This document shows positions 1,966 through 23,237 of a stretch of 23,237 bases of DNA, in pieces; position 1 is the first letter of the stretch; every line of letters starts with the position of its first letter. The notes under the pieces were generated by a model that was not told where the DNA came from, did not search any database, and was given only the letters and a program-made list of their open reading frames with translations. The DNA is from a virus. The stretch is taken from the IMG/VR virus record IMGVR_UViG_3300022934_000191, positions 1-23,237 of that record. One strand, given 5' to 3'. The translations under genes and the position numbers were made by a program.

Positions 1966-3318
1966 TTAAATTTCCTCTAAGTCAGTTGTGAATTGGTCTT
2001 GGGGTTTTGTCTTTTTCCAAAAGTTCAAGGTTCGTTTCGTTTCAGCAATCTGTTTCTTTAATTTAACAATTTCGTCTTTTGTTAAAGTCATGATACCTAA
2101 TGAGAGCAATCTGGCACAGTCACCTCCTTCGGCCGATGTCTCGTTCATTATTTGTTTCTGAACTTGTGTTTTGGTATTATCCTTAAATACAACTCGGCCA
2201 TCAACCACAGCTTGGATAAATTCCATTTTCACGGTTAACCAACGAACCTCTTCCGTGAACTCTGTTTTACGTGCATCGATTCTTTTCTGTAAAATACCTA
2301 AACGATAATCGCAAAAATCCTTAATCAGTTGTCGTGCGTCATCATATTCACGTAGCTTACCATCGTAATCAATCACGGTTAAATTTTGGGCAAAAGGTTT
2401 ACTCAACTTAAATTTACTAATAATTTTAGATCGAGACCATTTTGCCGAAGTGTTTTGTTTCAGTTTTACTTCAAACCTGAAACCAGTTTTATCACATAGG
2501 TCCTCATAGGAAACAATGTCGCCATCATCTTCCAAACCATCAAGGACCTTCACATATGATTCCCTGTCAAATCCGTATGGCACTTCCGTAATGGAGAGTA
2601 GCGTTTTTGTTCGCTGAGTGAAAGTACCATACGCAATATATTTTGTTGGGTCTTCTTTGTTTTGTTCCACAGTTCCACTGAACTCTGGGAATTTAATATC
2701 AATAGGATTTGCAATATCACCTGTTTCCAAATATTCCAAACACGCAGCACTAACACTTTCAGGGCAATGAGGTAGAATATTTGTAGCGAAACCAGTTGCA
2801 ATACCTTTTGTTCCATTAATTAAAACTAAAGGAATGACTGGTAAGTAAAATGCAGGTGGTTCGTGTTCTGGGTCATCATGAACTGGAGATAAATCCAAAT
2901 CCTTAATGTACGTGTTGAAGTTATCTGAAAGGCGAGTATAAACATACCTTGCCGCACCAGCCTCTTGTACCAGTCGAGTACCAAATGAACCTCGGCCTTC
3001 AATTAAACATATGTTGTTATTCCATGTTGCCGCCATTAATTGACCAGCACCCGCTGCCGAAGCCTCGCCGTGATTATAACCATAATCGGAAATGATACCA
3101 GACACAGCTGATACCTTTTTAAAATCTTTTTTACTATTGAGTATTGATGAATACAAATAGAACCTTTGAACAGGTTTTAATCCATCAACCATATTTGGAA
3201 TCGCACGAGATTCAACGGTGTACATTGCAAATGATTTCCATTCATTACGTGCTACACTTGAAATAGGATATTCAGTACCTAAAGTATTTTCACTTGTAAA
3301 AGCAGTTAAATCACTCAT
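1966..3318 (-). CDS. 52: Type II DNA topoisomerase, breakage-reunion subunit (T4 gp52)
   Basis: A 450-residue protein close in length to T4 gp52 (442). It opens with the GyrA/ParC-type DNA-cleavage domain: a segment SRAIPNMVDGLKPVQR (38-52), a YGYNHGEASAAG loop (79-90) and the catalytic region AGAARYVYTRLS. By alignment to GyrA (RY at the active site), Tyr125 preceded by Arg124 is the DNA-linked tyrosine. A helical coiled region at about 340-440 matches the family. It pairs with gp39 encoded upstream to relax or decatenate phage DNA during replication. The ATG has a GAGG site 8 bases ahead and overlaps the cysteine-cluster gene by 8 bases. There is no separate promoter, so it belongs to the gene 39 operon. 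Confidence 0.95.
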   Translation of the reverse strand: MSDLTAFTSENTLGTEYPISSVARNEWKSFAMYTVESRAIPNMVDGLKPVQRFYLYSSILNSKKDFKKVSAVSGIISDYGYNHGEASAAGAGQLMAATWNNNICLIEGRGSFGTRLVQEAGAARYVYTRLSDNFNTYIKDLDLSPVHDDPEHEPPAFYLPVIPLVLINGTKGIATGFATNILPHCPESVSAACLEYLETGDIANPIDIKFPEFSGTVEQNKEDPTKYIAYGTFTQRTKTLLSITEVPYGFDRESYVKVLDGLEDDGDIVSYEDLCDKTGFRFEVKLKQNTSAKWSRSKIISKFKLSKPFAQNLTVIDYDGKLREYDDARQLIKDFCDYRLGILQKRIDARKTEFTEEVRWLTVKMEFIQAVVDGRVVFKDNTKTQVQKQIMNETSAEGGDCARLLSLGIMTLTKDEIVKLKKQIAETKRTLNFWKKTKPQDQFTTDLEEI

Positions 3319-3613
3319 AATATTCCTCTAAATTTATACCTCGGAAAAAGTTTTCCTTCGAAACTTTACCAGCACTTAAATCATCAATTAATCTCAATGC
3401 ATTATCTTTTGTTATCATTCCTTTCTCATAATTTATTAACATAGGACAAAAAAATCTTTGACATCGTTCTGGTCTGTTTTCATATATGGAACATTTATTA
3501 TCACTAGTAAGATTTATACATGGCAAAATTAAATCATCGCCACCATCAATTATTACTTTATCAAATAATGTACCATTACAACAATGACCACATTCAAAGC
3601 ACAAATTATCCAA
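3311..3613 (-). CDS. YkgJ/CxxCxxCC-type cysteine-cluster protein between topoisomerase subunits
   Basis: A 100-residue protein starting at a TTG (3611-3613). I chose this start because AAGGAG lies 7 bases ahead, inside the end of gene 39. The longer in-frame ORF back to 3649 begins with another TTG and has no ribosome binding site. The protein has the YkgJ-type metal-binding pattern: C5xxC8xxC11C12, then PC (32), C41, a SIYENRPERC segment (C51) and C56. The family is thought to bind zinc or an iron-sulfur cluster; the function is poorly known. It overlaps gene 39 by 8 bases and gene 52 by 8, so the three are coupled. A metal-binding protein here is unusual. Confidence 0.75.
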   Translation of the reverse strand: MDNLCFECGHCCNGTLFDKVIIDGGDDLILPCINLTSDNKCSIYENRPERCQRFFCPMLINYEKGMITKDNALRLIDDLSAGKVSKENFFRGINLEEYYE

Positions 3614-5435
3614 ACATAAACTCCTTACGCAATGATGAATCCTTACCAAACATCATTTGAAGTACATCAGCGTCGTCCATTGTGACGACATCGTAGGTTG
3701 GTTTATTAATTATAATACTATATTCGTCCTCTGTCAATGACCCAAGACCTTTTATGTATCTATGTTTCCAATTCTTTTCTTTTGATTTAAATGAAGAAGC
3801 TTCCTCATAAGTATAGAACCATTTTATATCTTCACCTTTCGTTGAAATCATAATTGGAGTTCTGGTAATCATTACTCTTTGTTCAGTTAAGAGTCGTGGC
3901 CAGAATTTATAAAAGAATGCAATTAATAATGGACTGATATGTCCAATACCATCATGGTCAGCATCAGTTAGTGTTGCGATATACTTATATGACATATCAT
4001 CAACACTGTTTGGATTATTAATATCCAAACCTAATACAGCAACCAATTCACTCAATTCTTTATTCTTTAATACATCAGCGGGTTTCATATCCCACGTATT
4101 CATAATTACGCCTCGCAATGGAAACGCACCTACTTTATCTGGGTCGCGAACCTTTAATAGGAAACCCATTGCCGAGTCTCCTTCCACAATTTTAAGTGTC
4201 GCATCATCTTTATTTGCCGCAATGTGTTTTGCAACCTTAACCTTTCTTAATTTTTTCTGAGCCAATGTCGCAGCTCTTTTATCAGCTGCCATTTTCTTGG
4301 CAAGTTGTGCTTCGATAATTGGGTCAATAATAACAGGTGTATTTAAAATCTTCCTTGCGATGGCTTGGAAATCTTTAATGTCAGCCTGTTCAACGTGTTC
4401 CTTAATATTACTTTGTGGATTTGTTAAGCGTTCTTTTGTTTGACTGTCAAATTTTGGATTAATAAAATTACGAGCAAACATTACAAAGGTCAAACCACCT
4501 TTAATAGTAGTTTTCATCACCTCGATTTTATGTTTACGCTTAATCATTGTGACAAGTTCATCAACAATACTATTCACAATATAATCTACATAATTACCAC
4601 CCTGTCTGGTATTCACGCCATTTATAAAACTATTAGAGCGGAATCCATCTTCAGATGGAGCAAAGAACATTGCCAGATTATCTGATTTTTCTATAATTGT
4701 AGTTTCATCAAATAATGCAGCGTATTTCTTTAAATCTGTGACCTTAATTCTTCTCTTATTAAAATAGAAATTAATTTCAGGGAACGCCATTTGTAATGAC
4801 ATCAGTCTATCTTCAATTAATGATACTGTGTCTAATTCTTGTAGTGTGTCGACTTCAAATAAGTCAAAGTCTGGTATAAAAGAAACTTCAGTACCTGAAC
4901 CAGCTTTGGCCCCTGTTTTAATTTTTAACTCATCAGCACCATCTTTACAATGTACCTCCAGGTATTTGCTGTCAGCCCATGTACGACCAATAAACTTTGA
5001 TGAAAGGAAGTTTGTCGCGGCCGAACCGACACCGTTGGTACCGATTGTGACTCTCTCGTCGTCGAAGGAAGTACCAGCATTAACCTTAGTCCATGCGGCC
5101 ACAGGTCTCAAAATCTCTTCTTTAGAGGTTTCGTCATAAATTTTATCTTGTGGAATTCCGCGACCATTATCAGTGACGGTAATTTTATCTCCGTCAATGG
5201 ATACATTAATCTTATTTGAGTATTTAAAATTAGTTCTAATCGCCTCGTCAATTGCATTATCTAATATTTCATCAACCATTTTAGATAAGGCAGGGACATA
5301 TACAGCTTTCTTCCATTCACCACAAACAAATCTTTCTATTTGTTCACGAGAACTAGAACCCATATACATACCGATACGCTCTCGGACATGCTGACGAGCT
5401 GTCAATATTCTAAATTGTTCTGTCTGTTGTGTCAC
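3606..5435 (-). CDS. 39: Type II DNA topoisomerase, ATPase subunit (T4 gp39 with gp60 part fused)
   Basis: A 609-residue GyrB/ParE-like subunit. The GHKL ATPase signatures are present in order: DEILDNAIDEA (E56 and N60), TDNGRGIP (from D89) and GTNGVGSAATN (about 132-142). The TOPRIM motifs follow as EGDSAMG near 420 and TLTDADHDG near 490. In T4 itself the TOPRIM part is split off as gene 60; here it is one uninterrupted frame. The start is GTG with a GGAG site upstream, 19 bases after the expected start of a strong early promoter. It is the first gene of the minus-strand operon. The product drives DNA strand passage with gp52 and ATP. Confidence 0.95.
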   Translation of the reverse strand: MTQQTEQFRILTARQHVRERIGMYMGSSSREQIERFVCGEWKKAVYVPALSKMVDEILDNAIDEAIRTNFKYSNKINVSIDGDKITVTDNGRGIPQDKIYDETSKEEILRPVAAWTKVNAGTSFDDERVTIGTNGVGSAATNFLSSKFIGRTWADSKYLEVHCKDGADELKIKTGAKAGSGTEVSFIPDFDLFEVDTLQELDTVSLIEDRLMSLQMAFPEINFYFNKRRIKVTDLKKYAALFDETTIIEKSDNLAMFFAPSEDGFRSNSFINGVNTRQGGNYVDYIVNSIVDELVTMIKRKHKIEVMKTTIKGGLTFVMFARNFINPKFDSQTKERLTNPQSNIKEHVEQADIKDFQAIARKILNTPVIIDPIIEAQLAKKMAADKRAATLAQKKLRKVKVAKHIAANKDDATLKIVEGDSAMGFLLKVRDPDKVGAFPLRGVIMNTWDMKPADVLKNKELSELVAVLGLDINNPNSVDDMSYKYIATLTDADHDGIGHISPLLIAFFYKFWPRLLTEQRVMITRTPIMISTKGEDIKWFYTYEEASSFKSKEKNWKHRYIKGLGSLTEDEYSIIINKPTYDVVTMDDADVLQMMFGKDSSLRKEFMFG

Positions 5436-8280: not shown

Positions 8281-8991
8281 ATGAAGGCAATATTATTTGA
8301 TGTAGATGGAACACTTACCGAATCAAGGCGAGTAATGGATTCAGATTTTAGAAATGAGTTTATCCAATTCTGCTCACAAAATGATGTATTTCTAGTCACA
8401 GGAAGTGACAAACCAAAAACGATTGAACAAATAGGGCTCCCAGCTTATAACGCTGTAAAGGGAGCATATCAATGTAATGGTAATGAATCATGGCGTGATA
8501 GCCGACTTGTAAAAAAGAATGATTTTACTGCTGATTATGATTTTAAACATTTTTTATTAAATGAAATCAATCGTAATGATTATAAAATTAAAACTGGTAG
8601 TCATGTAGAGTTCAGAACCGGTATGTGTAATTTTAGCGTCATAGGTCGTAATTGTAATCAACAACAAAGAGAAGAATATTATCATTGGGACATTAAAACA
8701 AAGCAACGCGAAAAACTTGCCTCAAAGATTATGAAGACATTTCCAGATTTGACAGCATCACTTGGTGGTCAAATCAGCATAGATATATACCCTAAAGGTA
8801 AAAATAAAGCACAGGTCGTTCAAGATCTCATTGACGAAGGTTATACAGAAATGGATTTCTTTGGCGATAAGTGCGAATATGGTGGAAACGATTTCCCATT
8901 ATCAGAAACAATACGCCTTGCTAAGCTTGGAAATGTTTATAAAGTAGATAATTGGGAACACACTAGGAGAATTATAAATGAGCAGAGTTAG
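8281..8991 (+). CDS. Phosphomannomutase-family HAD protein (eukaryotic PMM type)
   Basis: A 236-residue protein that follows the eukaryotic-type phosphomannomutase (PMM1/PMM2, HAD type IIB) end to end. It has LFDVDGTLTESR with the nucleophile D7 and acid/base D9, a VTGSD loop, a HVEFRTGMCNFSVIGRNC segment, GGQISIDIYPKG and FFGDKCEYGGND, which provides the Mg site. The length is near the family's (about 245). PMM converts mannose-6-phosphate to mannose-1-phosphate for GDP-mannose. One difference is PKGKNK where PMM has PDGWDK, so substrate or activity may have drifted. It sits 14 bases after tRNA-Thr in the accessory region. With the two methyltransferases it could feed surface-glycan change, though that link is inference. 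Confidence 0.8.
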   Translation: MKAILFDVDGTLTESRRVMDSDFRNEFIQFCSQNDVFLVTGSDKPKTIEQIGLPAYNAVKGAYQCNGNESWRDSRLVKKNDFTADYDFKHFLLNEINRNDYKIKTGSHVEFRTGMCNFSVIGRNCNQQQREEYYHWDIKTKQREKLASKIMKTFPDLTASLGGQISIDIYPKGKNKAQVVQDLIDEGYTEMDFFGDKCEYGGNDFPLSETIRLAKLGNVYKVDNWEHTRRIINEQS

Positions 8992-9151
8992 ATATACATA
9001 TAACCACCCAGTAAAAGAGGGTGTGACTCTAGAAGTAGTTGGTAAGGAAGAAAAAATTGAAGGCGATACAACATATGTCCGTCGTATTGATGGCTACATT
9101 ATTGATATCCCAACAGCGAATATAACCAATAAGGAAACATTAGATACATGA
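8978..9151 (+). CDS. 57-residue hypothetical protein
   Basis: ATG at 8978 with AGGAG ahead, overlapping the end of the phosphomannomutase-family gene by 14 bases. The product reads MSRVRYTYNHPVKEGVTLEV, then a GKEEKIEGDTTYVRRIDGY strand pair and ends NKETLDT; it looks like a small beta-barrel or sheet. Its own end overlaps the next ATG (ATGA). Family not recognised. Confidence 0.6.
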   Translation: MSRVRYTYNHPVKEGVTLEVVGKEEKIEGDTTYVRRIDGYIIDIPTANITNKETLDT

Positions 9152-9432
9152 TACGTTCAGAAAAAGGCGAAAAGAAAATTGATTGGTATGTTAAATGGAT
9201 GGCATCAATTTTGGTATTATCCGCAATCATTTTCAGGTCAGCTGGAGCAGAATATCACACGCTTGATATGTATTTCAGCGCAGTCGGCATCGGCTTATGG
9301 CTTTGGGTATCTCTTCTTTGGGAAGACAGAGCTCTGATTCTATTAAATGGAGTCGCCTTTATAGTATTGTGTATTGGTATTATGCGAGACCATGGTCAAT
9401 GGTGGTTGACTTTTTGGCAAAACCTGTTATAA
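9148..9432 (+). CDS. Three-TM membrane protein
   Basis: A 94-residue protein with three hydrophobic spans, about 14-30, 40-58 and 62-79, separated by GAEYHTLDMYF and a WEDRALILLN segment. The YVKW...RSAG...LDMYFS...WLWVSLLWEDRALILLN layout resembles a small family of unknown function that I associate with marine alphaproteobacteria and their phages, possibly DUF6552; I am not certain of that name. It starts at ATG coupled to the previous gene. Its 3' end contains an early promoter for the following tRNA. If the family link is right, the gene may have come from a host. Confidence 0.65.
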   Translation: MIRSEKGEKKIDWYVKWMASILVLSAIIFRSAGAEYHTLDMYFSAVGIGLWLWVSLLWEDRALILLNGVAFIVLCIGIMRDHGQWWLTFWQNLL

Positions 9433-13289: not shown

Positions 13290-13613
13290 TTAAACCTTAA
13301 AATTTACTGAAACTCCACAACCACAGCTTGATACTTCTTTAGGATTTACAATTTTAAAATATTCGTTGAGTCCTTCCTGTATCCAATCTAACGTTGAACC
13401 TTCTAAATAAGGAATGGATAACTCATCAATTGCTATTTTAAATTTACCAAAATCTAAGAGAACATCATCTTTGTGAGTCGTATCAGCGTAAGTAATAATA
13501 TACTCCCAGCCAGCACAACCACCACCAGTGACACCAAGTCGGATAGTATCTCTGCCACCTTCCTTCGTTCTCTCAATCGCCTTAAGTATTGCTGCATCTG
13601 TTAATTCAATCAC
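13290..13613 (-). CDS. A-type Fe-S cluster carrier (IscA/HesB-like)
   Basis: A 107-residue protein with the three conserved cysteines of A-type carriers: C33 in GGGCAGWEY and C97/C99 in the CGCG end (SSCGCGVSVNFKV). The length is the family's usual one. These proteins bind and hand on Fe-S clusters or iron to apo-proteins. Versions are known in marine T4-like phages. The start is GTG, overlapping the upstream stop by 4 bases (GTGA). It lies in a late operon sharing a palindromic promoter with heme oxygenase and bilin reductase, both of which depend on a [2Fe-2S] ferredoxin. A role in supporting that ferredoxin is plausible but inferred. Confidence 0.9.
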   Translation of the reverse strand: MIELTDAAILKAIERTKEGGRDTIRLGVTGGGCAGWEYIITYADTTHKDDVLLDFGKFKIAIDELSIPYLEGSTLDWIQEGLNEYFKIVNPKEVSSCGCGVSVNFKV

Positions 13614-13909
13614 TTTTTCTTTTCTAATTTCTCTATTCGTTTTAGTAATGCTGCGATTTCATCTTTTAATTCTGTAGCACCACCAGGAGCAACAGGAGGA
13701 TGTGAGTCTCTCTCTAATGTTGCAATCCTTTCAGAAACTAGTGGATATTTTTCATGGAACTTTTTATCTTGTTTAATTAAATCTATGCCAAGTCTATCCT
13801 CAGCCCATTTATCAATCTTTAATAACCAAGGTTGCATAAAACTGAACGCGCCTGTAGTAGCCAACTTTAATATAATATTCTTAAAGATTGTAAGTATAAA
13901 AGAAATCAC
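13610..13909 (-). CDS. Membrane-anchored coiled-coil protein, first gene of a late operon
   Basis: I place the start at a GTG (13907-13909) with AAGGA 8 bases ahead, giving 99 residues. The frame is open to a TTG at 13969, but that lies upstream of the late promoter and has no ribosome binding site. The N-terminus is a membrane span (ISFILTIFKNIILKLATTGA). A middle region, WLLKIDKWAEDRLGIDLIKQ, is followed by a Pro/Gly-rich link (HPPVAPGGATE) and a lysine-rich coiled coil at the end (ELKDEIAALLKRIEKLEKKK). No family recognised. Coupled to the IscA-like gene. Confidence 0.6.
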   Translation of the reverse strand: MISFILTIFKNIILKLATTGAFSFMQPWLLKIDKWAEDRLGIDLIKQDKKFHEKYPLVSERIATLERDSHPPVAPGGATELKDEIAALLKRIEKLEKKK

Positions 13910-13941
13910 AATTATATCCTTTATTTTTGTTATTGTGCTAT

Positions 13942-13953
13942 TATTTATAAATA
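13942..13953. promoter_or_regulatory. Palindromic bidirectional late promoter TATTTATAAATA
   Basis: The 12-base sequence TATTTATAAATA is its own reverse complement. It contains an exact TATAAATA on the + strand (13946-13953) and another on the - strand (13942-13949). The + start is 46 bases upstream of the heme oxygenase ATG; the - one lies 33 bases upstream of the GTG of the membrane/IscA operon. Both distances suit T4-type late promoters. Confidence 0.75.
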
Positions 13954-13998
13954 CTTTCAGTATATCCAATGATTTAACAACTCAACAGAGGTGAATTG

Positions 13999-14619
13999 AT
14001 GTCAAATAACTTAAAAGAATTAACAAGAGCACACCACGATAGTGCAGAAAGAACAGAATTTGCAGACATGCTTATGTCTGGCCAAATTAGTCCAAAATTA
14101 TACCAAGAATATCTACACGCACAACTTCAAAACTATATGGTATTGGAATCAGCTGTAAGTGTCCCAATGGAGCTAGAACCAATTTTTCGCTCTACATTAA
14201 TTGAAGATGATTTACAAGAATTAGAGAATCTTTTCAATTTAGACGAAATCGAAGATAATCTACAATCAACAATAGAATATAACCATCATATCCAAACACT
14301 TATGGAAGATGGAAATAATGATGCTTTAATAGCACATCTATATGTAAGACATTTTGGTGACGCCCACGGTGGCCAAATAATCAAAAAGAATGTTCCCGGC
14401 AGTGGTAGAATGTATGAATTTGATGATAGACCAGGCTTAATTAAGGGTGTAAGAGAACTATTACATGATGGAATGGCTGATGAAGCAAAAAATTGTTTTG
14501 AATATGCTGAAAGACTTTTCCATGAATTAATGGAACGATACCAAGAAAATCCAGAAGAATATTTACCGGAAGCTGCATTGCTTGCTCAAGCAAATGGATA
14601 TCTAGAAGACTACGAATAA
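13999..14619 (+). CDS. ho1: Heme oxygenase
   Basis: A 206-residue protein of the biliverdin-forming heme oxygenase family. The N-terminus LKELTRAHHDSAER carries the proximal heme ligand, His13 by alignment of HDSAE with the HxxAE of known enzymes. The distal helix signature is HLYVRHFGDAHGGQI with G120, D121 and G124-G125. Length fits the cyanobacterial and phage forms. The reaction opens heme to biliverdin, CO and Fe2+, using O2 and electrons from ferredoxin. The start is ATG 13999 with GAGGTG ahead (a TTG at 13996 is discounted). The stop overlaps the bilin reductase start, so the two are co-translated. Expected late expression from the palindromic promoter. Confidence 0.9.
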   Translation: MSNNLKELTRAHHDSAERTEFADMLMSGQISPKLYQEYLHAQLQNYMVLESAVSVPMELEPIFRSTLIEDDLQELENLFNLDEIEDNLQSTIEYNHHIQTLMEDGNNDALIAHLYVRHFGDAHGGQIIKKNVPGSGRMYEFDDRPGLIKGVRELLHDGMADEAKNCFEYAERLFHELMERYQENPEEYLPEAALLAQANGYLEDYE

Positions 14620-15305
14620 TGGAAAGTGAATTATTTGATAGGCTGAGGGTATTGTCAGGCGAACTTGTTTCGCTGTTTGATAAAAGTATGACACGGTATG
14701 ACAATCCTAAACATACAGCAGATTTAGATGGTTGGAAAGATGCATTTTGGAAAAGCGATACAATTCGAAAAGCTCACCTCAAAACAATAGAGCCAGTTGG
14801 AAAGAATAAACTCTGGCTCATGCACATTAATATTTTCCCACAATTTGATGTTGACCTTCCTATCTTTGGTTTGGATATAGTAGCGAATCCTAAAAAGATC
14901 TCAGGTTGCTTTTGTGATTATTCACCTACATCTGAAAGATACCATCCTTTCTTAGATAAGTTTAAATTAGAAACATCTGGTTTGACTTGGACAAGAGCAA
15001 GAGAAATGCCAGATTGGGCTCAAGAAATTTTCAGTCCTAATATTGTAGGTGCTGGTTCAATACGAGAAGGAGAGGAGACAGACCAACTCTGTCAGATGGC
15101 CTTTAATCTTGCTTCCTTTTATTGTATGGAAATGGATAACCCAGTTCATCAAAAGGTAGATGGGCTGAATACAAGAGATGCTCAAAACAAATATTGTCGT
15201 AATCAGAAAATGAATAGAATGCTTCATTCATCAATCCTTGCAATGGGGATATCTGAAGAGCGCAAGAACCAATATGTTGAAGATGTACTCTTTGAAGAAG
15301 TATAA
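14619..15305 (+). CDS. pcyX: Ferredoxin-dependent bilin reductase (PcyX/PebS/PcyA family)
   Basis: A 228-residue protein with the bilin reductase signatures in order: RKAHLKTIEP (50-59), KLWLMHINIFPQFDVDLPIF (64-83), GLDIVA, KISGCFCDYSPT (93-103), WTRAREMPDWAQEIFS and near the end AQNKYCRNQKMN. The family reduces biliverdin with electrons from ferredoxin; PcyA makes phycocyanobilin, while phage PebS and PcyX make phycoerythrobilin. Asp100 in CDYSP is a candidate catalytic aspartate. I name it PcyX because the setting is a T4-like phage without visible cyanophage pigment genes; sequence alone does not prove this over PebS. One-base overlap with the heme oxygenase stop. Family sure, subclass moderate. 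Confidence 0.85.
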   Translation: MESELFDRLRVLSGELVSLFDKSMTRYDNPKHTADLDGWKDAFWKSDTIRKAHLKTIEPVGKNKLWLMHINIFPQFDVDLPIFGLDIVANPKKISGCFCDYSPTSERYHPFLDKFKLETSGLTWTRAREMPDWAQEIFSPNIVGAGSIREGEETDQLCQMAFNLASFYCMEMDNPVHQKVDGLNTRDAQNKYCRNQKMNRMLHSSILAMGISEERKNQYVEDVLFEEV

Positions 15306-15410: not shown

Positions 15411-15470
15411 TTGCGTTAGGGAATGATACTTTCCGAAACACAATGTTTCTTTTGGTATCACCTAACACAA
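15411..15470 (+). ncRNA. Structured RNA: long interrupted hairpin upstream of a secreted-protein gene
   Basis: Nested pairs are TTG/CAA, GTTAGG/CCTAAC (15415-15420 with 15461-15466), GATAC/GTATC and GAAAC/GTTTC around an ACAAT loop. Small internal loops separate the helices. A TATAAT (15406-15411) lies just before it, without a clear -35. No T run follows, so it is not a simple terminator. It ends 34 bases before the ATG at 15504 and could be a 5' leader element. Confidence 0.5.
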
Positions 15471-15503
15471 AATTTATCCCCAAATCTTACAGGAGAAAAA
15501 GCT

Positions 15504-15767
15504 ATGAATAAGCTTGTGGCCGCGCTGTGCGTGCTTTTAGGTATTGGAACCATGTCGGTTCAGGCAGATGAGTTATACTCTTACACTGCAAAATTAAATG
15601 AAGAAGGCGAATATTGTGCTCGGATTGAGTACTTGGGTGTCAATAATCTTCCCGTGAAAAGAACTAAGTGTCGTACATTGGAAGAGTGGTATGCGCGTGG
15701 ATACCTGATTACAGAAGTTGGTCAGCCAACACCTACTCTACAAAACTTTGAAAATGGTGGCTGGTAG
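15504..15767 (+). CDS. Small exported protein with signal peptide
   Basis: An 87-residue product. The start is ATG 15504 with AGGAG upstream; the longer frame back to 15423 runs through the hairpin and is rejected. The N-terminus is a textbook signal peptide, MNKLVAALCVLLGIGTMSVQ followed by ADE, with predicted cleavage after residue 22 (VQA). The mature part has two cysteines (EYCARIEYLG and RTKCRTLEEW) that could form a disulfide in the periplasm. No family recognised. It comes after the bilin reductase gene, but behind a separate leader. Confidence 0.65.
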   Translation: MNKLVAALCVLLGIGTMSVQADELYSYTAKLNEEGEYCARIEYLGVNNLPVKRTKCRTLEEWYARGYLITEVGQPTPTLQNFENGGW

Positions 15768-16200: not shown

Positions 16201-16243
16201 AGAACCAAATACAATGCAAAAACAAAAAGGGGAAGAATCCGAA

Positions 16244-16486
16244 ATGTCTGTAGTAGCATTAACACCAGATAAAATACATCATGAGATAAGCAAACATATA
16301 TCCAAGGGAGTTCCCTATATTGATGCTTTAGTTCACTTTGCTGAACAGAACGAAATTGAAATTGAAACCATTGCACAGATTGTAAAGAAATCTTCTATAC
16401 TAAAAGAGAAGATTAAAACTGAAGCAGTAGGTTTACGAATGGTAGAAAAAGACAATGAGCCAGATATCACAGACCATTGCAAGTGA
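16244..16486 (+). CDS. 33: Late transcription co-activator (T4 gp33-like)
   Basis: An 80-residue protein. The core KGVPYIDALVHFAEQNEIEI, then ETIAQIVKK and LKEKIKTEAVGLRMVEK follow the helical pattern of T4-type gp33 (YxDAxxxxxExxxIExE, then LKEKIxxEAxxL). gp33 bridges RNA polymerase and the sliding clamp so that gp55-bearing polymerase reads TATAAATA promoters; such promoters are found in this window. Gene order with 59 and 32 is as in T4. GGGGAAG precedes the ATG; an upstream in-frame TTG (16214) is not needed. It overlaps gene 59 by 32 bases. The assignment rests on motif and order. Confidence 0.75.
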   Translation: MSVVALTPDKIHHEISKHISKGVPYIDALVHFAEQNEIEIETIAQIVKKSSILKEKIKTEAVGLRMVEKDNEPDITDHCK

Positions 16487-17057
16487 TAAATCATTCGAAG
16501 CGTATATTAAATTTAACGCAATAAAAAGACATTTTACTACAGATAACTACGATTATTTCAAGTATAACGGAAAAGTAAGAGCAAATTTTGATACTTTTAT
16601 CAGCAGAAATGACGCTTACAGTTTCGCTAAACTTGCAAAAAGAGAAGATTATGAGAACTTAATTCTTGCTAATATACTCAGGAAGCCTGACATCTGGGTC
16701 CGAGAAATTTTGGACGAGGAGTCGGAAGAAAGATATATATTATGGAAGAAGAAAATTGAAGCCTTAGGCTACAATTTCAAAAGTGAGTTGGGAAAACTCA
16801 ATGAGGATTACCAACAAAATTTTATATCACGGGATGGCCAACACCCTTATATAATGTCACTGTATTTGCAAAAGCAAATCAGTCTTGAAACATTGACCAT
16901 CTTGGCACATTCTGCAAATATTTTTTCGTATTGGAACGAAAAAGTGGTTGACAAAATTGTAGCTTGTGATATAATAAGACTTGTTAGAAAATATAAACCT
17001 TTTCTAGCATATGATGAAAAGAGGTTCAAGAACATTGTTCGCGAATACTTCTTCTAA
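16455..17057 (+). CDS. 59: Replicative helicase loader (T4 gp59-like)
   Basis: A 200-residue, all-helical basic protein. Segments FNAIKRHFTTDNYDYFKYNG, RNDAYSFAKLAKR and NLILANILRKPDIWVREI parallel the start of T4 gp59 (about 217 residues). HPYIMSLYLQKQISLETLTI matches its second domain. gp59 binds fork DNA and gp32 and loads the gp41 helicase, both encoded downstream. The ATG at 16455 lies within gene 33 with a weak ribosome binding site, so translation is probably coupled. An early promoter lies inside its 3' part. Confidence 0.85.
   Translation: MSQISQTIASDKSFEAYIKFNAIKRHFTTDNYDYFKYNGKVRANFDTFISRNDAYSFAKLAKREDYENLILANILRKPDIWVREILDEESEERYILWKKKIEALGYNFKSELGKLNEDYQQNFISRDGQHPYIMSLYLQKQISLETLTILAHSANIFSYWNEKVVDKIVACDIIRLVRKYKPFLAYDEKRFKNIVREYFF
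16948..16975 (+). promoter_or_regulatory. Early promoter inside gene 59, for gene 32
   Basis: TTGACA (16948-16953), 16 bases, TATAAT (16970-16975), both perfect, within gene 59. It would start a message near 16982, about 120 bases before the gene 32 ATG, giving gene 32 its own strong transcript. Confidence 0.75.
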
Positions 17058-17058
17058 T

Positions 17059-17096
17059 CGCAATATAACGCAATATAACGCTATACACAAGGAGAC
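17059..17096 (+). promoter_or_regulatory. Candidate gp32 autoregulatory operator in the gene 32 leader
   Basis: Two direct copies of CGCAATATAA (17059-17068, 17069-17078) and a partial third CGCTATAC lead into AAGGAG. The leader is AU-rich with no evident stable stem. T4 gp32 represses its own mRNA by binding cooperatively to an unstructured, repetitive leader over the ribosome binding site; this tract has that shape. No upstream pseudoknot was identified. Confidence 0.45.
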
Positions 17097-17101
17097 TAAA
17101 T

Positions 17102-18043
17102 ATGGCACTTACAGACTTTTCTTCGCTCAAGAAGAACAGAAAAAATACTCTCGATAAGTTGAATTCTCAACTCGAGAAAATCGCAAAACCATCTTACCAA
17201 GACCCTAACGAAGGTAAATTTTGGAAACCTACTAGAGATAAAGCTGGTAATGGATTCGCAGTAATCCGTTTCTTACCTGCACCTCAAGGTGAAGAAATGC
17301 CTTTCGTAAGGATTTGGGACCATGGATTCCAAGGACCTACAGGTCAGTGGTATATCGAAAACTCATTAACCACTTTGGGACAGGACGACCCTGTTTCTGA
17401 GTACAATTCCAAACTCTGGAATTCAGGTATTGAGGCTGATAAGGAACAAGCAAGAAAACAGAAGCGTAGGCTGAAGTACATTGCTAATATCTATGTTGTG
17501 AAAGACTCAGCAAATCCAGAAAACGAAGGCAAAGTATTCATGTACCAATTCGGTAAGAAAATCTTTGACAAGTTAAATGATTTAATGAATCCTTCATTCG
17601 AAGATGAAACTCCTGTCAATCCATTTGATTTATGGGAAGGTGCAAACTTTAGACTGAAAATTCGTCAGTTCGAAGGTTATCCTAACTATGACAAATCTGA
17701 ATTTGACCCTGCGACACCTTTATTCGAAGATGATGCAGAGTTGGAGAGAGTATGGAATGAAGAACATTCCCTCCAGGAACTACTTGAACCTAAAAACTTC
17801 AAGTCTTATGCTGATTTAAAAACCAAACTCTACAGAGTTCTGGATTTATCGTCAGACACAACCGAACAGGTTGCAACATCAAGCTTTGATAATGACACAG
17901 GAGACTCTTCTGATGACCTTGACTTGAGTAATCTATCTCAATCTGCACCAGAACCTTCTGCACCAGTTGCTGAAACCCCTGCGGCCAGCACTGATGACGA
18001 TGATGACGATCTATCAATCTTCAAAGAGCTTGCTAGAGGCTAA
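17102..18043 (+). CDS. 32: Single-stranded DNA-binding protein (T4 gp32)
   Basis: A 313-residue protein with the T4 gp32 layout. The basic N-terminal cooperativity region includes SLKKNRKNTLDKL. The core has FWKPTRDKAGNGFAVIRFLP, GQWYIENSLTTLGQDDPVSE, IANIYVVKDSANPENEGKVF and FGKKIFDKLND. A Ser/Asp/Glu-rich acidic tail follows from about 255 (DDDDDDLSIF near the end). It coats ssDNA and recruits gp59, UvsX and polymerase. The T4 core binds zinc through three cysteines and a histidine; this protein has no cysteine at all, so the zinc site is lost, as I recall for marine relatives. AAGGAG precedes the ATG. Confidence 0.95.
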   Translation: MALTDFSSLKKNRKNTLDKLNSQLEKIAKPSYQDPNEGKFWKPTRDKAGNGFAVIRFLPAPQGEEMPFVRIWDHGFQGPTGQWYIENSLTTLGQDDPVSEYNSKLWNSGIEADKEQARKQKRRLKYIANIYVVKDSANPENEGKVFMYQFGKKIFDKLNDLMNPSFEDETPVNPFDLWEGANFRLKIRQFEGYPNYDKSEFDPATPLFEDDAELERVWNEEHSLQELLEPKNFKSYADLKTKLYRVLDLSSDTTEQVATSSFDNDTGDSSDDLDLSNLSQSAPEPSAPVAETPAASTDDDDDDLSIFKELARG

Positions 18044-18055
18044 TTTGGTATATAA

Positions 18056-18116
18056 GGCAAGTGGGCTTCAAAAGCGCTCGCGATTAAGTTCGTGTACAGC
18101 GCGGCCCACCTCTGCC
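18056..18116 (+). ncRNA. GC-rich structured RNA element between gene 32 and the next gene
   Basis: Nested helices: GGCA/TGCC (18056-18059 with 18113-18116), GTGGGC/GCCCAC (18061-18066 with 18104-18109), GCGCT/AGCGC (18074-18078 with 18098-18102) and CGCGA/TCGTG around a TTAAGT loop. It is much richer in GC than its surroundings, and no T run follows. It may be a 3' stabiliser for gene 32 mRNA, a processing site or a cis-regulator of the next gene. I cannot match it to a known class. Confidence 0.55.
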
Positions 18117-18133
18117 GCCTTTAAGGAGAAACT

Positions 18134-18418
18134 ATGTCAATAAAACCAGAAACCGTACTTGACTTCGATTTCGGCTTTACAGCTATGACCGAAGATGAGT
18201 TAACCGTGGTGCAAGAAACTAGAGAGGCTGCAGAAACTGCATCTTCCTCAGCTGAAATCGCATCACAAAAAGCACAACTTTTATATGACGCAATCACGCC
18301 ACTGTTAAATAACCTTAAGGCGAATCCTGAAAAAGATTATATCTATTGGCCGGACCGTTATGCAAAACTTGATGCGTTTGCAGATAAATTACATCAAATA
18401 TTAACTGGAGAATTATAA
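18134..18418 (+). CDS. Conserved T4-like phage protein between 32 and uvsX
   Basis: A 94-residue protein starting MSIKPETVLDFDFGFTAMTE, with a coiled-coil middle (LTVVQETREAAETASSSAEI, ASQKAQLLYDAIT) and a conserved-looking end LLNNLKANPEKDYIYWPDRY. I recognise the DFDFGFTA opening and the NLKxNPEKxYIxWPxR ending from small ORFs at the same place in marine T4-like genomes. The function is unknown; location suggests a role in recombination or replication. AAGGAG precedes the ATG. The stop overlaps the uvsX start by one base. Confidence 0.75.
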   Translation: MSIKPETVLDFDFGFTAMTEDELTVVQETREAAETASSSAEIASQKAQLLYDAITPLLNNLKANPEKDYIYWPDRYAKLDAFADKLHQILTGEL

Positions 18419-19482
18419 TGAGTTTACTTGATAAAATGCTCAAAGCAGGTTCAGTAAAATCTTCTAACGTTCTCTCCAAATCAGCATTCTTCCAAGAAAA
18501 AGACCCAATTAAAACCGAACTACCGATTGTCAATATTGCATTCAGTGGTTCGCTTGATGGTGGTTTAATTCCTGGATTAACTGTTGTTGCGGGTGAATCA
18601 AAGAGTTTTAAAACCTTGTTAGGTCTTTATTGTATGAAGGCTTACCTAAACAAATATAAAGATGGCGTTGCCCTCTTATATGATTCTGAATATGGTATTA
18701 CACCAGAATATTTGGAAAGTTATAACATTGACACAGACCGTGTTATCCACATTCCAATCGAAGATGTTGAACAATTAAAATTTGACATCACTAAAAGATT
18801 AAATGAGATTGACAAAGGTGACCGTGTATTTGTTATGATTGACTCAATCGGAAACCTTGCTTCTAGAAAAGAGGTTGAGGATGCCGAAAATGAGAAAAGT
18901 GTTGCCGATATGTCACGTGCGAAACAATTGAAATCGCTCTTCCGTATCGTCACACCTAAATTGACTGGCAAGGACATTCCTTGTATTGCGGTCAACCACA
19001 CTTACAAGGAAATTGGATTATTTCCTAAAAACATTGTATCAGGTGGTACTGGTATCTATTATTCAGCTAACCAAATCTTTATTATTTCCAAAGCACAGGA
19101 AAAAGATGGAACAGAACTTGCTGGATTTAAATTTACTATCAACATTGAAAAATCAAGATATGTAAAAGAGAAATCAAAACTACCATTCACAGTCTTATAT
19201 GACTCTGGAATCCAAAAATGGTCAAGTCTATTTGAACTCGCTCTTGAAGGTGGGTGGTTGACAAAGGCCACACAAGGATGGTATAATGTAGTGGATAAAT
19301 CAACAGGTGAAATTCTTGGCTCTAAACGAAGAGCAAAAGACATTGAATCTGATAATGAATTCTTCGAAGGCTTAATTGCTGACAAAGAGTTCAATGCTTT
19401 TGTTGAAAAGAAATATAAACTAACTATGGTGGAGGCAGAAAGTGCTCGAGAAGACGATATTATCGAACCTGATACTGAATGA
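18418..19482 (+). CDS. uvsX: UvsX recombinase (RecA-type)
   Basis: A 354-residue RecA-family ATPase. The phage-type Walker A is VVAGESKSFKTLL (GESKSFKT at 59-66), and Walker B is GDRVFVMIDSIGNL (about 136-149). Further segments include RAKQLKSLFRIVTPKL and AVNHTY, then GGTGIYYSANQIFI. The product forms filaments on gp32-coated ssDNA and performs strand exchange for recombination-dependent replication. Its start overlaps the preceding stop by one base, and gene 41 begins within its last 41 bases. It contains an internal early promoter near 19258. Confidence 0.95.
   Translation: MSLLDKMLKAGSVKSSNVLSKSAFFQEKDPIKTELPIVNIAFSGSLDGGLIPGLTVVAGESKSFKTLLGLYCMKAYLNKYKDGVALLYDSEYGITPEYLESYNIDTDRVIHIPIEDVEQLKFDITKRLNEIDKGDRVFVMIDSIGNLASRKEVEDAENEKSVADMSRAKQLKSLFRIVTPKLTGKDIPCIAVNHTYKEIGLFPKNIVSGGTGIYYSANQIFIISKAQEKDGTELAGFKFTINIEKSRYVKEKSKLPFTVLYDSGIQKWSSLFELALEGGWLTKATQGWYNVVDKSTGEILGSKRRAKDIESDNEFFEGLIADKEFNAFVEKKYKLTMVEAESAREDDIIEPDTE
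19258..19287 (+). promoter_or_regulatory. Early promoter inside uvsX, for gene 41
   Basis: TTGACA (19258-19263), 18 bases, TATAAT (19282-19287), both hexamers perfect, within uvsX. A message would start near 19294, about 150 bases before the gene 41 GTG. The 18-base spacer is one longer than ideal. Confidence 0.65.
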
Positions 19483-20878
19483 AGAATACAGTCGTAAGGT
19501 ATTTCCTTATTTAAAGGAAGACTATTTTGATGATACCGCTTATCGTAAGCTATTTTCTACTGCATTTGATTATGTTGAAAAATACAAAGAGCCTCCTTCA
19601 AAAGAGGCTTTACGTATTGCACTTGACCACCGTTCAGATCTAAATGAGGATTTATATTCACAGACATCTGAACTGATTGATAATCTAGAATTAGATAAAT
19701 CTACAAACCTTGACTTCCTTTTATCTGAAACAGAAAAATTCTGTCAAGATAAGGACCTTTATAATGCTATTCGTAGGTCTATCAACATTCTAGATGGTCA
19801 GGATTCTGGAATCGGCAAGGGCGAAATACCAAAACTATTATCTGATTCGTTGGGTATTAGTTTTGACCAATCAGTTGGTCATGATTTCCTAAATGATTAT
19901 GATGATCGTTATGAACATTACCACAGAAAGGAAGAGCGTATTCCTTTCGATATTGATATATTAAACAAAATCACCAAAGGCGGTCTACCTCGTAAATCTA
20001 TGACTGTGTTATTGGCAACAACTGGTGGTGGTAAATCATTGGTAAAATGCCACATGGCAGCTAATCATCTGATGTATGGTAAAAATGTTTTGTATATTAC
20101 AATGGAAATGGCTGAGGAAGAGATTGGTCGCCGTATCGATGCCAATATTATGGATATTACGTTAGACGAAGTAAATGAAATCCCACGTGATGTTTATGAA
20201 AAGAGAATGGCAAGATATAAAACCAAAACACCTGGTAAACTTGTAATTAAAGAGTTCCCAACTGGTAGTGTACACTCTGGTCACTTTAGACATTTATTAA
20301 ATGAACTTCGTTTGAAAAAAGGCTTTCAGCCTGATGTAGTATATTTGGATTATCTTAATATATGTGCTTCATCTCGAGTTCGTGGCGCGGCTGCAGCAAA
20401 TAGTTATACATTGGTAAAATCTATTGCTGAGGAAGTGCGTGGTCTTGCAATGGAATATAATTGTGCAATTGTCACATCATCACAGTTCAATCGTGATGGT
20501 TATGGCAATTCAGATGTTGACTTGACAAATACATCGGAATCAATGGGTATCACTCATACTGCTGATGCAATATTTGGTCTGGTCAGTTCTGAATATCTTG
20601 ATGAATTGAATCAACTCATGATTAAACAATTGAAAAATCGCTGGGGCGATATCAGTTATTATCGTAGGTTCCTTGTTGGTATTGAACGTGCCAAAATGAA
20701 AATCTATGAATTAGAGGAATCAGCACAGAAAAATATAGACATTGAAGGACCTGGTGGTGGGTCTGGAAAAAAGATTCAAGTTGATGATGGACCAGTGTTT
20801 GATAAAACAGACATTGGAACAAGGCTCAGTAGACGAAAATCCAAGAATGTTTTTGCAGACACTGTAGACTTTAGATAA
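19442..20878 (+). CDS. 41: Replicative DNA helicase (T4 gp41, DnaB-type)
   Basis: A 478-residue protein. The start is GTG with GGAGG 6 bases ahead, overlapping uvsX by 41 bases. An N-terminal helical domain (about 1-140) leads to the RecA-like core: KITKGGLPRKSMTVLLATTG, with Walker A TTGGGKS (Lys198), YITMEMAEEEIGRRIDANIM and VVYLDYLNIC as Walker B. Further motifs are SYTLVKSIAEEVRGLA and IVTSSQFNR. All match T4 gp41. It unwinds the fork as a hexamer and is loaded by gp59, encoded upstream. Confidence 0.95.
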   Translation: MLEKTILSNLILNEEYSRKVFPYLKEDYFDDTAYRKLFSTAFDYVEKYKEPPSKEALRIALDHRSDLNEDLYSQTSELIDNLELDKSTNLDFLLSETEKFCQDKDLYNAIRRSINILDGQDSGIGKGEIPKLLSDSLGISFDQSVGHDFLNDYDDRYEHYHRKEERIPFDIDILNKITKGGLPRKSMTVLLATTGGGKSLVKCHMAANHLMYGKNVLYITMEMAEEEIGRRIDANIMDITLDEVNEIPRDVYEKRMARYKTKTPGKLVIKEFPTGSVHSGHFRHLLNELRLKKGFQPDVVYLDYLNICASSRVRGAAAANSYTLVKSIAEEVRGLAMEYNCAIVTSSQFNRDGYGNSDVDLTNTSESMGITHTADAIFGLVSSEYLDELNQLMIKQLKNRWGDISYYRRFLVGIERAKMKIYELEESAQKNIDIEGPGGGSGKKIQVDDGPVFDKTDIGTRLSRRKSKNVFADTVDFR

Positions 20879-20939: not shown

Positions 20940-22400
20940 ATGAAACGCTTCGGCAATTATATTACAGAAGGCTCAATTCTTAAACCAGACTACGTAGTAG
21001 GTCATAAATTTGTTTTTAAAGGTAATGGCTTTAAAGAGCTATTAGCTTTAGGTTATAAGAAAGATGATATATTCGAGGTTGTATCTGAAAATCCTAATGC
21101 ATTAGAGGTTGGACCACAGGGTGGTGATTTTGTAAAACACCTTAAAGGTCCTGATGGTCGTATCATTAAAATCACAGGTGGCTCCGCGTCGGCCAAATCG
21201 GGTAATTTCACACACCTACCCGCGGCCGGCTCACCTCCGAAAGCAGCAGAATGGGAAGATCTCATTGTATATGCTTATAATAAGATTAATAATCAACCCA
21301 CAGATGAAGCCACATCTGAAGTAGCATTAAAATACTGGGATTTATATTCTGAAAATGCTACAACAATTGCTAAAAATTTCAATAGAGCCTTAAAAACGAA
21401 TCGTATGGTCCAAACTGGTCGCGGAGGCGCGGTTGGTAAAGTAGAATTAGGTCCATTTTGGAAAGAAACAGGTGCAGGAGATAAAACTCCAAAAACCGAT
21501 ATCGCATCAGCTGACTTTAAAGAGAAGGTATCTTTGAAAAAGACAGGTGGTTCTCAATTGGCATCAGCTGAGAAAAAAGAAGGTATCGCCATTGTTAAGT
21601 CTGCACTTGCTGAAATGGGTGCTCAACCAGGTTTCGCAAAAGATCTTTTAGACGCAATGGAAGAAAAAATGACTAAATTGATTAGTCGTGAAACTACTGG
21701 TAGTTTAGAAGACGCGGCCAAGGCTGGTAAAAAGACAGCAGAGGTACTTGATTACCAGAAAAAGGATGCTCAAAATAAGGAACTTTCAATAATGCTTGAA
21801 AGTTATATTAACCAAAATACAGCAGCAAATTCTTTATTCGCAAAACATGTTGTATTTGAAGCTTCTACTGGTAATAATAAATTCGGTTCTCCATCATCAA
21901 AGGCTGCAGCAAATTTATTAGGAAAATTTGACCCATCTGGTTCAGTTGTAATAGAACCAATTAGGAGTGTAAACGACCCTATTATTTCAAAATACGCTAA
22001 AAATGTCAAACCTTATGTTGCATTTAAAAAGGGTGGAGCAAGTCCAGCCTATTCTGCATTCCGATTAGGTTTATCAAAAACAAATGAAGAATTTGAAACA
22101 TTTTCTTCCATAGTTCTAAATGAATTAAATAGCCATAAAGAATTCCAATCATTATTAACAGAGGACTTTTTACAAGAAGGACCTTTTGATATGCTTCGAA
22201 AAGCAGGAGTTGCAATTAGAAGTATGGGTAAAAAAGCACTTGGCTTTTTGAAGAGAGTAGTTGATAATATTATGGCTAATGTGAAAAAAGTATTTAAAAG
22301 ACTTGTATCGGCTGGTAAAAGCATGTTTAAACGATTAATGGCATTCTTTGGATTGGATATATCTTCTACGAGAGGTATTCCTGGTGGGGTATCTCTATAA
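20940..22400 (+). CDS. Putative head-packaged protein with nuclease-like core and basic C-terminus
   Basis: A 486-residue protein. The start MKRFGNYITE followed by G resembles the capsid-targeting peptide of T4 internal proteins, cut by prohead protease gp21 after (I/L)xE; here after E10. A core at about 100-210 has WEDLIVYAYN, KTDIAS and VSLKKTGGSQLAS, which could be the E, D and (S)xK parts of a PD-(D/E)xK nuclease fold (E106, D187, K200). Residues 418-470 are strongly basic and amphipathic (SMGKKALGFLKRVVDNIM, VKKVFKRLVSAGKSMFKRLM). A second possible cut is LQE (411-413) before G. Preceded by an exact late octamer. No known family; packaging and nuclease ideas are inferred. Confidence 0.6.
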   Translation: MKRFGNYITEGSILKPDYVVGHKFVFKGNGFKELLALGYKKDDIFEVVSENPNALEVGPQGGDFVKHLKGPDGRIIKITGGSASAKSGNFTHLPAAGSPPKAAEWEDLIVYAYNKINNQPTDEATSEVALKYWDLYSENATTIAKNFNRALKTNRMVQTGRGGAVGKVELGPFWKETGAGDKTPKTDIASADFKEKVSLKKTGGSQLASAEKKEGIAIVKSALAEMGAQPGFAKDLLDAMEEKMTKLISRETTGSLEDAAKAGKKTAEVLDYQKKDAQNKELSIMLESYINQNTAANSLFAKHVVFEASTGNNKFGSPSSKAAANLLGKFDPSGSVVIEPIRSVNDPIISKYAKNVKPYVAFKKGGASPAYSAFRLGLSKTNEEFETFSSIVLNELNSHKEFQSLLTEDFLQEGPFDMLRKAGVAIRSMGKKALGFLKRVVDNIMANVKKVFKRLVSAGKSMFKRLMAFFGLDISSTRGIPGGVSL

Positions 22401-23237
22401 TGAAAAGCTTTTTAGAGTATAAAAAGACACCACCTATTGATGTCGAAGAAGGACCAAACGATCCAGCAATTTTTAAAGCAATATTTCTTGCGGGTGGTCC
22501 AGGCTCTGGAAAAAGTTTTATTTCGGGTAAAACAGGTTTACCTATTCTTGGATTTAAAGTTGTCAATTCAGATATTTCGTTTGAAAAGGCAATGAAAGAT
22601 GCTGCTCTGGAAATGAATCCAGAAAATATCTTTAGTGTCACTGGTCAGGCAATGAGAGATAGAGCTAAGAAAATGACTGCTATAAAGAAAAAGATTTTAT
22701 TAAGAGGTCGTCTTGGTTTAGCCATTGATGGTACTGGACGCGATTATTTAAAACTCAAAAATCAAGCTATAGAATTAAAAACATTAGGTTATGATGTGGC
22801 CATGATTTTTGTGAATACAGACTTAGATACAGCGTTGGAAAGGAATAGAAATCGTGAAAGAACATTACCCGAACCGGCTGTTGTTAAAATGTGGAAAGAT
22901 GTGCAGACAAATATTGGACGCTTCCAAAGTTTATTTAAAGATAATTTCATTATTGTTGACAATTCTACTGGTAGTAATTGGCAGAAAGCTACTACGAAAG
23001 GATTCAAATTCGCACAACGATTTGCAAATAAACCAGTCCGACATGTCAAAGCAATAAAATGGCTTGCACAATTCCGAAGTGGTCAAATGGAAGGTTGCAT
23101 GGACTTGGAGGATATGAAACTTGTAGAAAGTATCATTGATATCCCAAGAAGAACATATGCACCCGCTGTATTTGATAACGAGGAATCTGATAATCCAAAA
23201 ATCAAACCAAGTGTAAAAGAATTAATTAATAAACAAT
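22400..23237 (+). CDS. P-loop kinase, zeta-toxin-like, C-terminus outside window
   Basis: The ATG overlaps the previous stop (TAATG), and the frame is open for 279 codons to the right edge. The protein starts MKSFLEYKKTPPIDVEEGPN and carries Walker A in IFLAGGPGSGKSFISGKTGL (about 28-47). Then come VVNSDISFEKAMKDA, LAIDGTGRDYLKLKNQAIEL and MIFVNTDLDTALERNRNRER, the layout of zeta-toxin or polynucleotide-kinase-like P-loop kinases, with arginines (NRNRER) in the lid. Its opening MKSFLEY resembles T4 head-targeting peptides less clearly than its neighbour. The acceptor is unknown; zeta toxins phosphorylate UDP-sugars, others phosphorylate nucleic-acid ends. Expected late. Confidence 0.75.
   Translation, partial: MKSFLEYKKTPPIDVEEGPNDPAIFKAIFLAGGPGSGKSFISGKTGLPILGFKVVNSDISFEKAMKDAALEMNPENIFSVTGQAMRDRAKKMTAIKKKILLRGRLGLAIDGTGRDYLKLKNQAIELKTLGYDVAMIFVNTDLDTALERNRNRERTLPEPAVVKMWKDVQTNIGRFQSLFKDNFIIVDNSTGSNWQKATTKGFKFAQRFANKPVRHVKAIKWLAQFRSGQMEGCMDLEDMKLVESIIDIPRRTYAPAVFDNEESDNPKIKPSVKELINKQ

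Follow-up and report, generated by a model that had tools for sequence, protein, structure and literature searches.

Why would a phage with no visible photosynthesis genes carry the enzymes that turn heme into a bilin? Bilin production by phages of phycobilisome-free bacteria has been called enigmatic (PMC11480375). The question arises again in the DNA of an aquatic virus, 23,237 nucleotides long (IMG/VR record IMGVR_UViG_3300022934_000191, positions 1 to 23,237), the whole of which we call the window. A first-pass annotation of this DNA had described a heme oxygenase gene coupled to a bilin reductase gene in a T4-like phage and had proposed a PcyX-type cassette. Both genes are found in that place, carry the motifs that had been quoted and match their Pfam families:

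13988-13993, plus strand: Shine-Dalgarno-like GAGGTG ahead of the heme oxygenase start, from direct reading of the sequence
13999-14619, plus strand: heme oxygenase (HO), 206 aa (PF01126, E 8.5e-20; phmmer matches to human and bacterial HO structures)
14619-15305, plus strand: ferredoxin-dependent bilin reductase (FDBR) of the lysine-55 type, 228 aa (PF05996, E 7.4e-19; 5owg, E 5e-33; assigned by residue tally, trees and structure)

The HO gene opens with ATG at 13999 and ends with a stop codon at 14617-14619, while the FDBR gene runs from ATG at 14619 to a stop codon at 15303-15305. Stop and start overlap by one base in TAATG, and the two genes are thus very likely translationally coupled. 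In HO, the proximal histidine and the distal GDxHGG motif are intact, the latter containing the GDxxGG that marks a PF01126 heme oxygenase; the proximal histidine, G119, D120, G123 and G124 (numbering from Ser2) are invariant among 41 distinct relatives. The second protein is a member of the PF05996 FDBR family, and its His69 and Asp86 correspond to His88 and Asp105 of PcyA. The T4-like nature of the phage was borne out by genes for gp39 and gp52 (topoisomerase subunits), gp33, gp59, gp32, UvsX, gp41 and a tail tube protein in the window.

Relatives of the FDBR occur on 79 viral contigs, with near-full-length matches at 67-100% identity, and the active-site block is kept in 47 distinct FDBR sequences. 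Pairwise dN/dS is 0.06-0.10 for FDBR and 0.02-0.07 for HO, some dS values being near saturation; judged by these ratios, both genes are under purifying selection. Distribution, active-site conservation and low dN/dS together argue that the cassette is not a product of chance; it is real and conserved, and its enzymes are probably active. That the FDBR is a drifting, inactive remnant beside a working HO is scarcely credible: it has lost the acidic residue at position 55, as such a remnant might, but dN/dS is low, His69, Asp86 and Lys55 do not vary among 117 sequences, some of them only about 45% identical, and the AlphaFold2 model is well folded.

One mark of the type of FDBR is position 55, the site of Glu76 in PcyA and of Asp55 in PcyX. 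Scans of viral contigs gave 79 loci near the window enzyme, 194 near the enzyme of Pelagibacter phage Mosig (EXVC030M) and more than 585 by a mixed profile. One extra scan used a peptide pattern demanding the lysine, and its tally was left out of the evidence; no lysine-requiring pattern entered the scans behind the following counts. Lysine occupies position 55 in 117/117 distinct window-type sequences and aspartate in 64/64 Mosig-type (PcyX) sequences, 5owg included, while His69 and Asp86 are invariant across all 181 distinct near-full-length sequences (181/181). Glu76 itself is present in the compared cyanobacterial PcyA and in cyanophage PcyA (6/6).

The phylogeny against PcyA, PebA, PebB, PebS and PcyX that had been suggested with the first description was run. 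A first tree, which also contained the long PebA, PebB and PebS branches and one pre-like sequence, grouped PcyX with the lysine type at 100/100 against PcyA. When these were left out, PcyA (100/100), PcyX (100/99) and the lysine type (98/98) each formed one side of a branch. A weak nesting of PcyX within a lysine grade, seen in the first tree with PebA, PebB, PebS and the pre-like sequence, was dropped, since removal of the long branches gave separate supported groups. Placement within PebS, named beforehand as one of two outcomes that would contradict the PcyX-type reading, was not seen: the FDBR lies outside the PebA/PebS lineage in the tree and in the structure comparison. These trees left out alphaproteobacterial PcyA, which adjoins PcyX in published trees (PMC10151467). 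Among 385 genomes searched for it, all from the class to which the metagenome-assembled genome (MAG) "Rhodobacteraceae bacterium Water_Bin34" belongs, only three gave matches, namely the MAG itself and two unlike PcyA.

The AlphaFold2 model of the FDBR, built with 48 relatives, has a mean pLDDT of 90.6 and superposes on 5owg (PcyX_EBK42635, its best solved relative, E 5e-33) with 1.5 Å over 176 residues and on PcyA with 2.5 Å over 218 residues; Foldseek and VIA-align also matched the fold to PcyA, PcyX, PebA and PebB. Like the ho1-pcyX cassettes of uncultured marine phages and of Mosig, the window cassette consists of HO followed by an FDBR with an Asp-His pair in a T4-like phage without psbA, and its HO is 38% and its FDBR 32% identical to those of Mosig. 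What stands of the PcyX-type assignment is that the nearest solved relative is PcyX, together with the 32% identity to the Mosig enzyme and a fold within 1.5 Å of 5owg. What does not stand is membership in PcyX proper: with about one third sequence identity, Lys rather than Asp at position 55, its own clade (98/98) and its own locus, the window FDBR belongs, by residues and trees, to a separate lysine-55 clade.

Three other kinds of bilin reductase bear comparison. The PcyA of cyanobacteria, cyanophages and alphaproteobacteria shares the His88/Asp105 equivalents and the fold (Z 24.5), but the window enzyme has 20-25% identity to it, lacks Glu76 and lies outside the cyanobacterial and cyanophage PcyA clade (100/100), alphaproteobacterial PcyA being outside the comparison. 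Cyanophage PebS is likewise a phage-encoded FDBR, but it belongs to another clade, has Asn at the His69 position and gives a lower structural match (Z 18). Finally, pre-PcyA of heterotrophic bacteria resembles our case as a non-cyanobacterial FDBR near HO without Glu76. Pre-PcyA is defined by replacement of His88 by Asn or Thr (PMC10151467); the window FDBR keeps this residue as His69, and the neighbourhood of the window cassette showed no recognisable globin or V4R genes.

At 78% identity the lysine type comprises 44 representatives and PcyX six, with uneven sampling. This widens the picture of phage FDBRs, in which PcyX becomes one branch and the lysine type, as unevenly sampled, the more diverse one. 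No description of the lysine type was found in literature texts, supplementary trees lying outside that search, and no FDBR relative was found in plasmids. The kind of cassette has been known since ho1-pcyX and Mosig; here it belongs to a phage branch that is separate and larger, always has the lysine, occupies a locus of its own and shows a late promoter motif.

What would such an enzyme make? Glu76 is reported to be PcyA-specific and needed to reduce the 18-vinyl (D-ring) group, and to be absent from PcyX and pre-PcyA (PMC10151467). As the window FDBR has Lys in its place, phycocyanobilin is not expected, and the predicted product is a reduced bilin other than phycocyanobilin. PcyX converts biliverdin to phycoerythrobilin, and Asp55 of PcyX was reportedly found by Ledermann in 2018 not to be catalytic. 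Given the likeness of the FDBR to PcyX, phycoerythrobilin is our first guess and would be the most likely product, followed by a two-electron product.

There is a counter-case, compared by description only. The 527-kb freshwater phage CB_2 encodes hemO, pcyA and alaS, has a predicted non-cyanobacterial host, and its FDBR, without Asp55, was shown to make phycocyanobilin and to load a phytochrome with it (PMC11480375). The lysine-type phages resemble it in having HO and FDBR genes with alaS elsewhere in the genome (in relatives G001, G002 and G432) and in the absence of Asp55. By analogy, the window enzyme, which retains the Asp-His pair, could be PcyA-like and reach phycocyanobilin without Glu76 to supply a phytochrome-like photoreceptor of the host. 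We consider this unlikely in view of the requirement for Glu76 in 18-vinyl reduction, the lysine found instead in all members, and the absence of a phytochrome PHY domain from the phages and the Water_Bin34 MAG.

Further information comes from the surroundings of the cassette, where the following features were found:

13290-13613, minus strand: A-type Fe-S carrier (IscA/SufA/ErpA family), divergent from the cassette (PF01521, E 3e-11; TIGR00049 above cut-off)
13610-13969, minus strand: 119-aa protein between promoter and IscA gene, present in 27/37 subclade loci
13942-13953, both strands: palindromic T4-type late promoter TATTTATAAATA, 12 bp, with TATAAATA on each strand (supported by a positional test)
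15423-15767, plus strand: small protein with homologues in 28 contigs, whose internal Met at MNKLVAALCVLL opens a signal-peptide-like stretch
16214-16486, plus strand: gp33 late-transcription coactivator (PF16805, E 1e-12; phrog_254, E 4e-13)
16455-20878, plus strand: gp59 helicase loader, gp32 single-stranded DNA-binding protein, a small protein, UvsX and gp41 helicase (PHROGs; synteny counts)

Neither the 119-aa protein nor the small protein at 15423-15767 matched a family in Pfam and PHROG searches. The lysine-type locus lies just ahead of gp33-gp59-gp32-uvsX-gp41. Counted per locus rather than per contig, and among loci whose downstream DNA is long enough, gp33 comes after the cassette in 116/124 lysine-type loci, gp59 in 104/111 and gp32 in 96/103, so the cassette precedes the gp59-gp41 module in nearly all of them; the corresponding counts for Mosig-type loci are 0/27, 0/22 and 0/18. 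The Mosig cassette sits instead between 2OG-oxygenase genes and neck genes, whereas that of the window precedes gp33-gp59-gp32 under TATAAATA.

T4 and KVP40 use TATAAATA as late promoter, and S-PM2 uses NATAAATA (PMC2984593). In the window, the plus-strand copy of TATAAATA lies at 13946-13953, 45 nt ahead of the HO start, and the minus-strand copy points at the divergent gene pair; another copy stands 35 nt ahead of the tail tube gene. The motif is kept in 37/38 distinct upstream regions of window-subclade relatives. Of 88 distinct upstream regions of the lysine type, 65 have it within 100 nt of the HO start, where shuffles give about 2; of 51 Mosig-type ones, three do (shuffles, about 1.3). 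Total counts of TATAAATA are not enriched in most contigs, the bias being in position alone: in eleven sequences, 92/156 copies are followed on their own strand by an ORF that starts 15-60 nt further on, compared with a median of 7% for 55 anagrams. Of a T4-type late unit, both the TATAAATA motif at the distance of a promoter and a phage-encoded homologue of gp33 are present. Upstream conservation, positional bias, the tail-tube copy and the encoded gp33 make late, possibly bidirectional, transcription of the cassette a well-supported prediction.

Other genes were noted upstream of related cassettes. A class 3 lipase gene (L168, 3345-4127, minus strand; PF01764, E 1e-23) is divergent from the cassette in about 27/44 window-subclade loci and absent from that place in the window. 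Several relatives carry upstream a gene for a porin-like or outer-membrane secreted protein (L082, 5618-6415; G423, 143106-143897; L168, 1318-1938), which in L082 and G423 is immediately upstream. The secreted protein of L168 matches Gcw_chp (PF09694), and those of L082 and G423 match no Pfam family.

Is the bilin wanted at all, or only the iron? HO could be the point of the cassette, supplying Fe-S proteins and ribonucleotide reductase with iron or removing free heme, with the FDBR clearing biliverdin so that HO turns over. A role in iron supply has already been considered for cassettes of this kind (PMC11480375). The divergent A-type Fe-S carrier gene, found in 23/32 window-subclade loci with enough upstream DNA, shares the palindromic promoter with the cassette, and relative G001 encodes IscU-like and IscA-like proteins among other Fe-S/redox genes, as well as serine hydroxymethyltransferase. 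The same G001 (89 kb; FDBR 67% identical) bears a gene for 5-aminolevulinate (ALA) synthase, AlaS (TIGR01821, E 4e-166), and AlaS genes are likewise found in G002 and G432, in each case about 30 kb downstream of FDBR. The window ends 8 kb past FDBR, and G005, 98.2% identical to the window over 8.5 kb, ends just before the AlaS distance. Making heme in order to break it yields no net iron, and the FDBR is conserved about as strictly as HO; we thus regard iron or heme turnover as a rather improbable purpose. Synthesis of a heme precursor and breakage of heme in one phage suggest that the bilin rather than the iron is wanted, with flux probably pushed through new heme into bilin instead of iron merely being salvaged.

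Phycobilin supply is the role proposed for ho1-pebS and ho1-pcyA cyanophages. If the host had phycobilisomes, the phage would in the same way maintain its phycobilin supply and so support photosynthesis, an explanation to which cyanophage enzymes of the same family and the UvsX of the window lend something. The single nearest isolate by UvsX is a phage of freshwater Synechococcus (Synechococcus elongatus), at 59%, followed by one of Sinorhizobium. We nevertheless hold this explanation to be quite improbable. The earlier remark that photosynthesis genes are not visible proved right, and psbA, hli or cpeT, named beforehand as the other contradicting outcome, did not appear in the records searched. 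Profile searches covered 18 records, namely the window plus 17 relatives, three of these being contigs of 170, 195 and 221 kb; psbA and hli were found in 0/18, and both were detected in the cyanophage P-SSM7 control. With P-SSM7 CpeT as query, tblastn on the window and ten contigs found cpeT in the control only; its absence rests on tblastn, as the CpeT Pfam profile missed its positive control. The window and its relatives are fragments, and genes absent from them may lie beyond their ends. Moreover, the FDBR is outside the cyanophage PcyA and PebS clades, its own clade has no isolate, and relatives have AlaS-type ALA synthesis.

A host that is probably not a cyanobacterium is our reading. The nearest isolates by gp41 have Caulobacter, Stenotrophomonas and Methylophilales hosts, and isolates near by UvsX or gp41 infect Sinorhizobium, Caulobacter, Stenotrophomonas and Acidovorax. 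Assigning a host from isolates was given up, as the gp39, gp41 and UvsX relatives are all at 60% identity or below and their hosts are mixed. A Rhodobacteraceae host was considered because Water_Bin34 holds three window-like T4-like phage contigs; two of them differ 16-fold in coverage, so that the binning is weak evidence of a host, and this assignment was set aside too.

The phage contigs and AlaS genes of Water_Bin34 (L082, L083, L190, L193 and L196) comprise three lysine-type HO-FDBR cassettes and three viral-type AlaS genes; a fourth, more distant AlaS is presumably the MAG's own. One bacterial exception in a published AlaS tree is a "Rhodobacter-like genomic bin" (PMC11480375), which may represent phage contigs such as these. 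Viral-type genes reported as bacterial from such bins may thus be phage contigs. A faint host lead is a DUF6552 protein of the window (9148-9432, plus strand; PF20189, E 2e-18), found among isolates only in Pelagibacter phages HTVC008M and Mosig and in phage C48C1; its gene had no match in plasmids.

What we infer of the activity of the cassette, its product, timing, electron donor, host and bilin use can be put together in one scheme, which we think fairly probable: an operon of two enzymes that turn heme into a phytobilin, expressed late by a T4-like phage with a probably non-cyanobacterial host. After the onset of replication, gp55/gp33/gp45-type late transcription would start from the palindromic TATAAATA site and proceed rightward through the HO and FDBR genes and leftward through the Fe-S carrier gene. 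HO would convert heme to biliverdin, iron and CO, and the FDBR, coupled at TAATG, would reduce biliverdin with electrons of host ferredoxin. A phage 2Fe-2S ferredoxin was found in Mosig, whereas none scored above cut-off in the lysine-type phages searched. The FDBR would act through its conserved Asp-His catalytic pair, with Lys replacing the Glu needed for D-ring vinyl reduction. As to its use, our preferred guess is that a host protein takes the bilin as its chromophore or responds to it as an effector; among the relatives, nothing was recognised as a bilin-binding protein.

It is tempting to go further, more tentatively and with more doubt than conviction, and to propose for the lysine-55 enzymes an FDBR family of their own, distinct in its reaction or regiospecificity. 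They would be spread in a large group of T4-like phages, none of them cultured, that infect bacteria without phycobilisomes, as part of a late bilin pathway fed by phage ALA synthase and unrelated to antennae. The lysine clade offers natural sequences in large number, a constant gene order, a promoter motif from which late expression is predicted, and a changed active site at the very residue presumed to set the product; with these the purpose of phage bilins becomes assayable.

Several other window genes deserve mention. Two FkbM-type methyltransferase genes (395-1105, plus strand; 1095-1793, minus strand) lie end to end and adjoin the tail tube gene. A Cys-rich CxxCxxCC-like protein (3311-3649, minus strand), whose Pfam match is slightly below cut-off, is encoded in overlap with topoisomerase genes on both sides. 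The T4-like phage also encodes a eukaryotic-type phosphomannomutase (8281-8991, plus strand; PF03332, E 8e-35) and, at 22400-23236 on the plus strand, a protein with a Zeta-toxin/AAA-type kinase domain (PF06414, E 1e-5).
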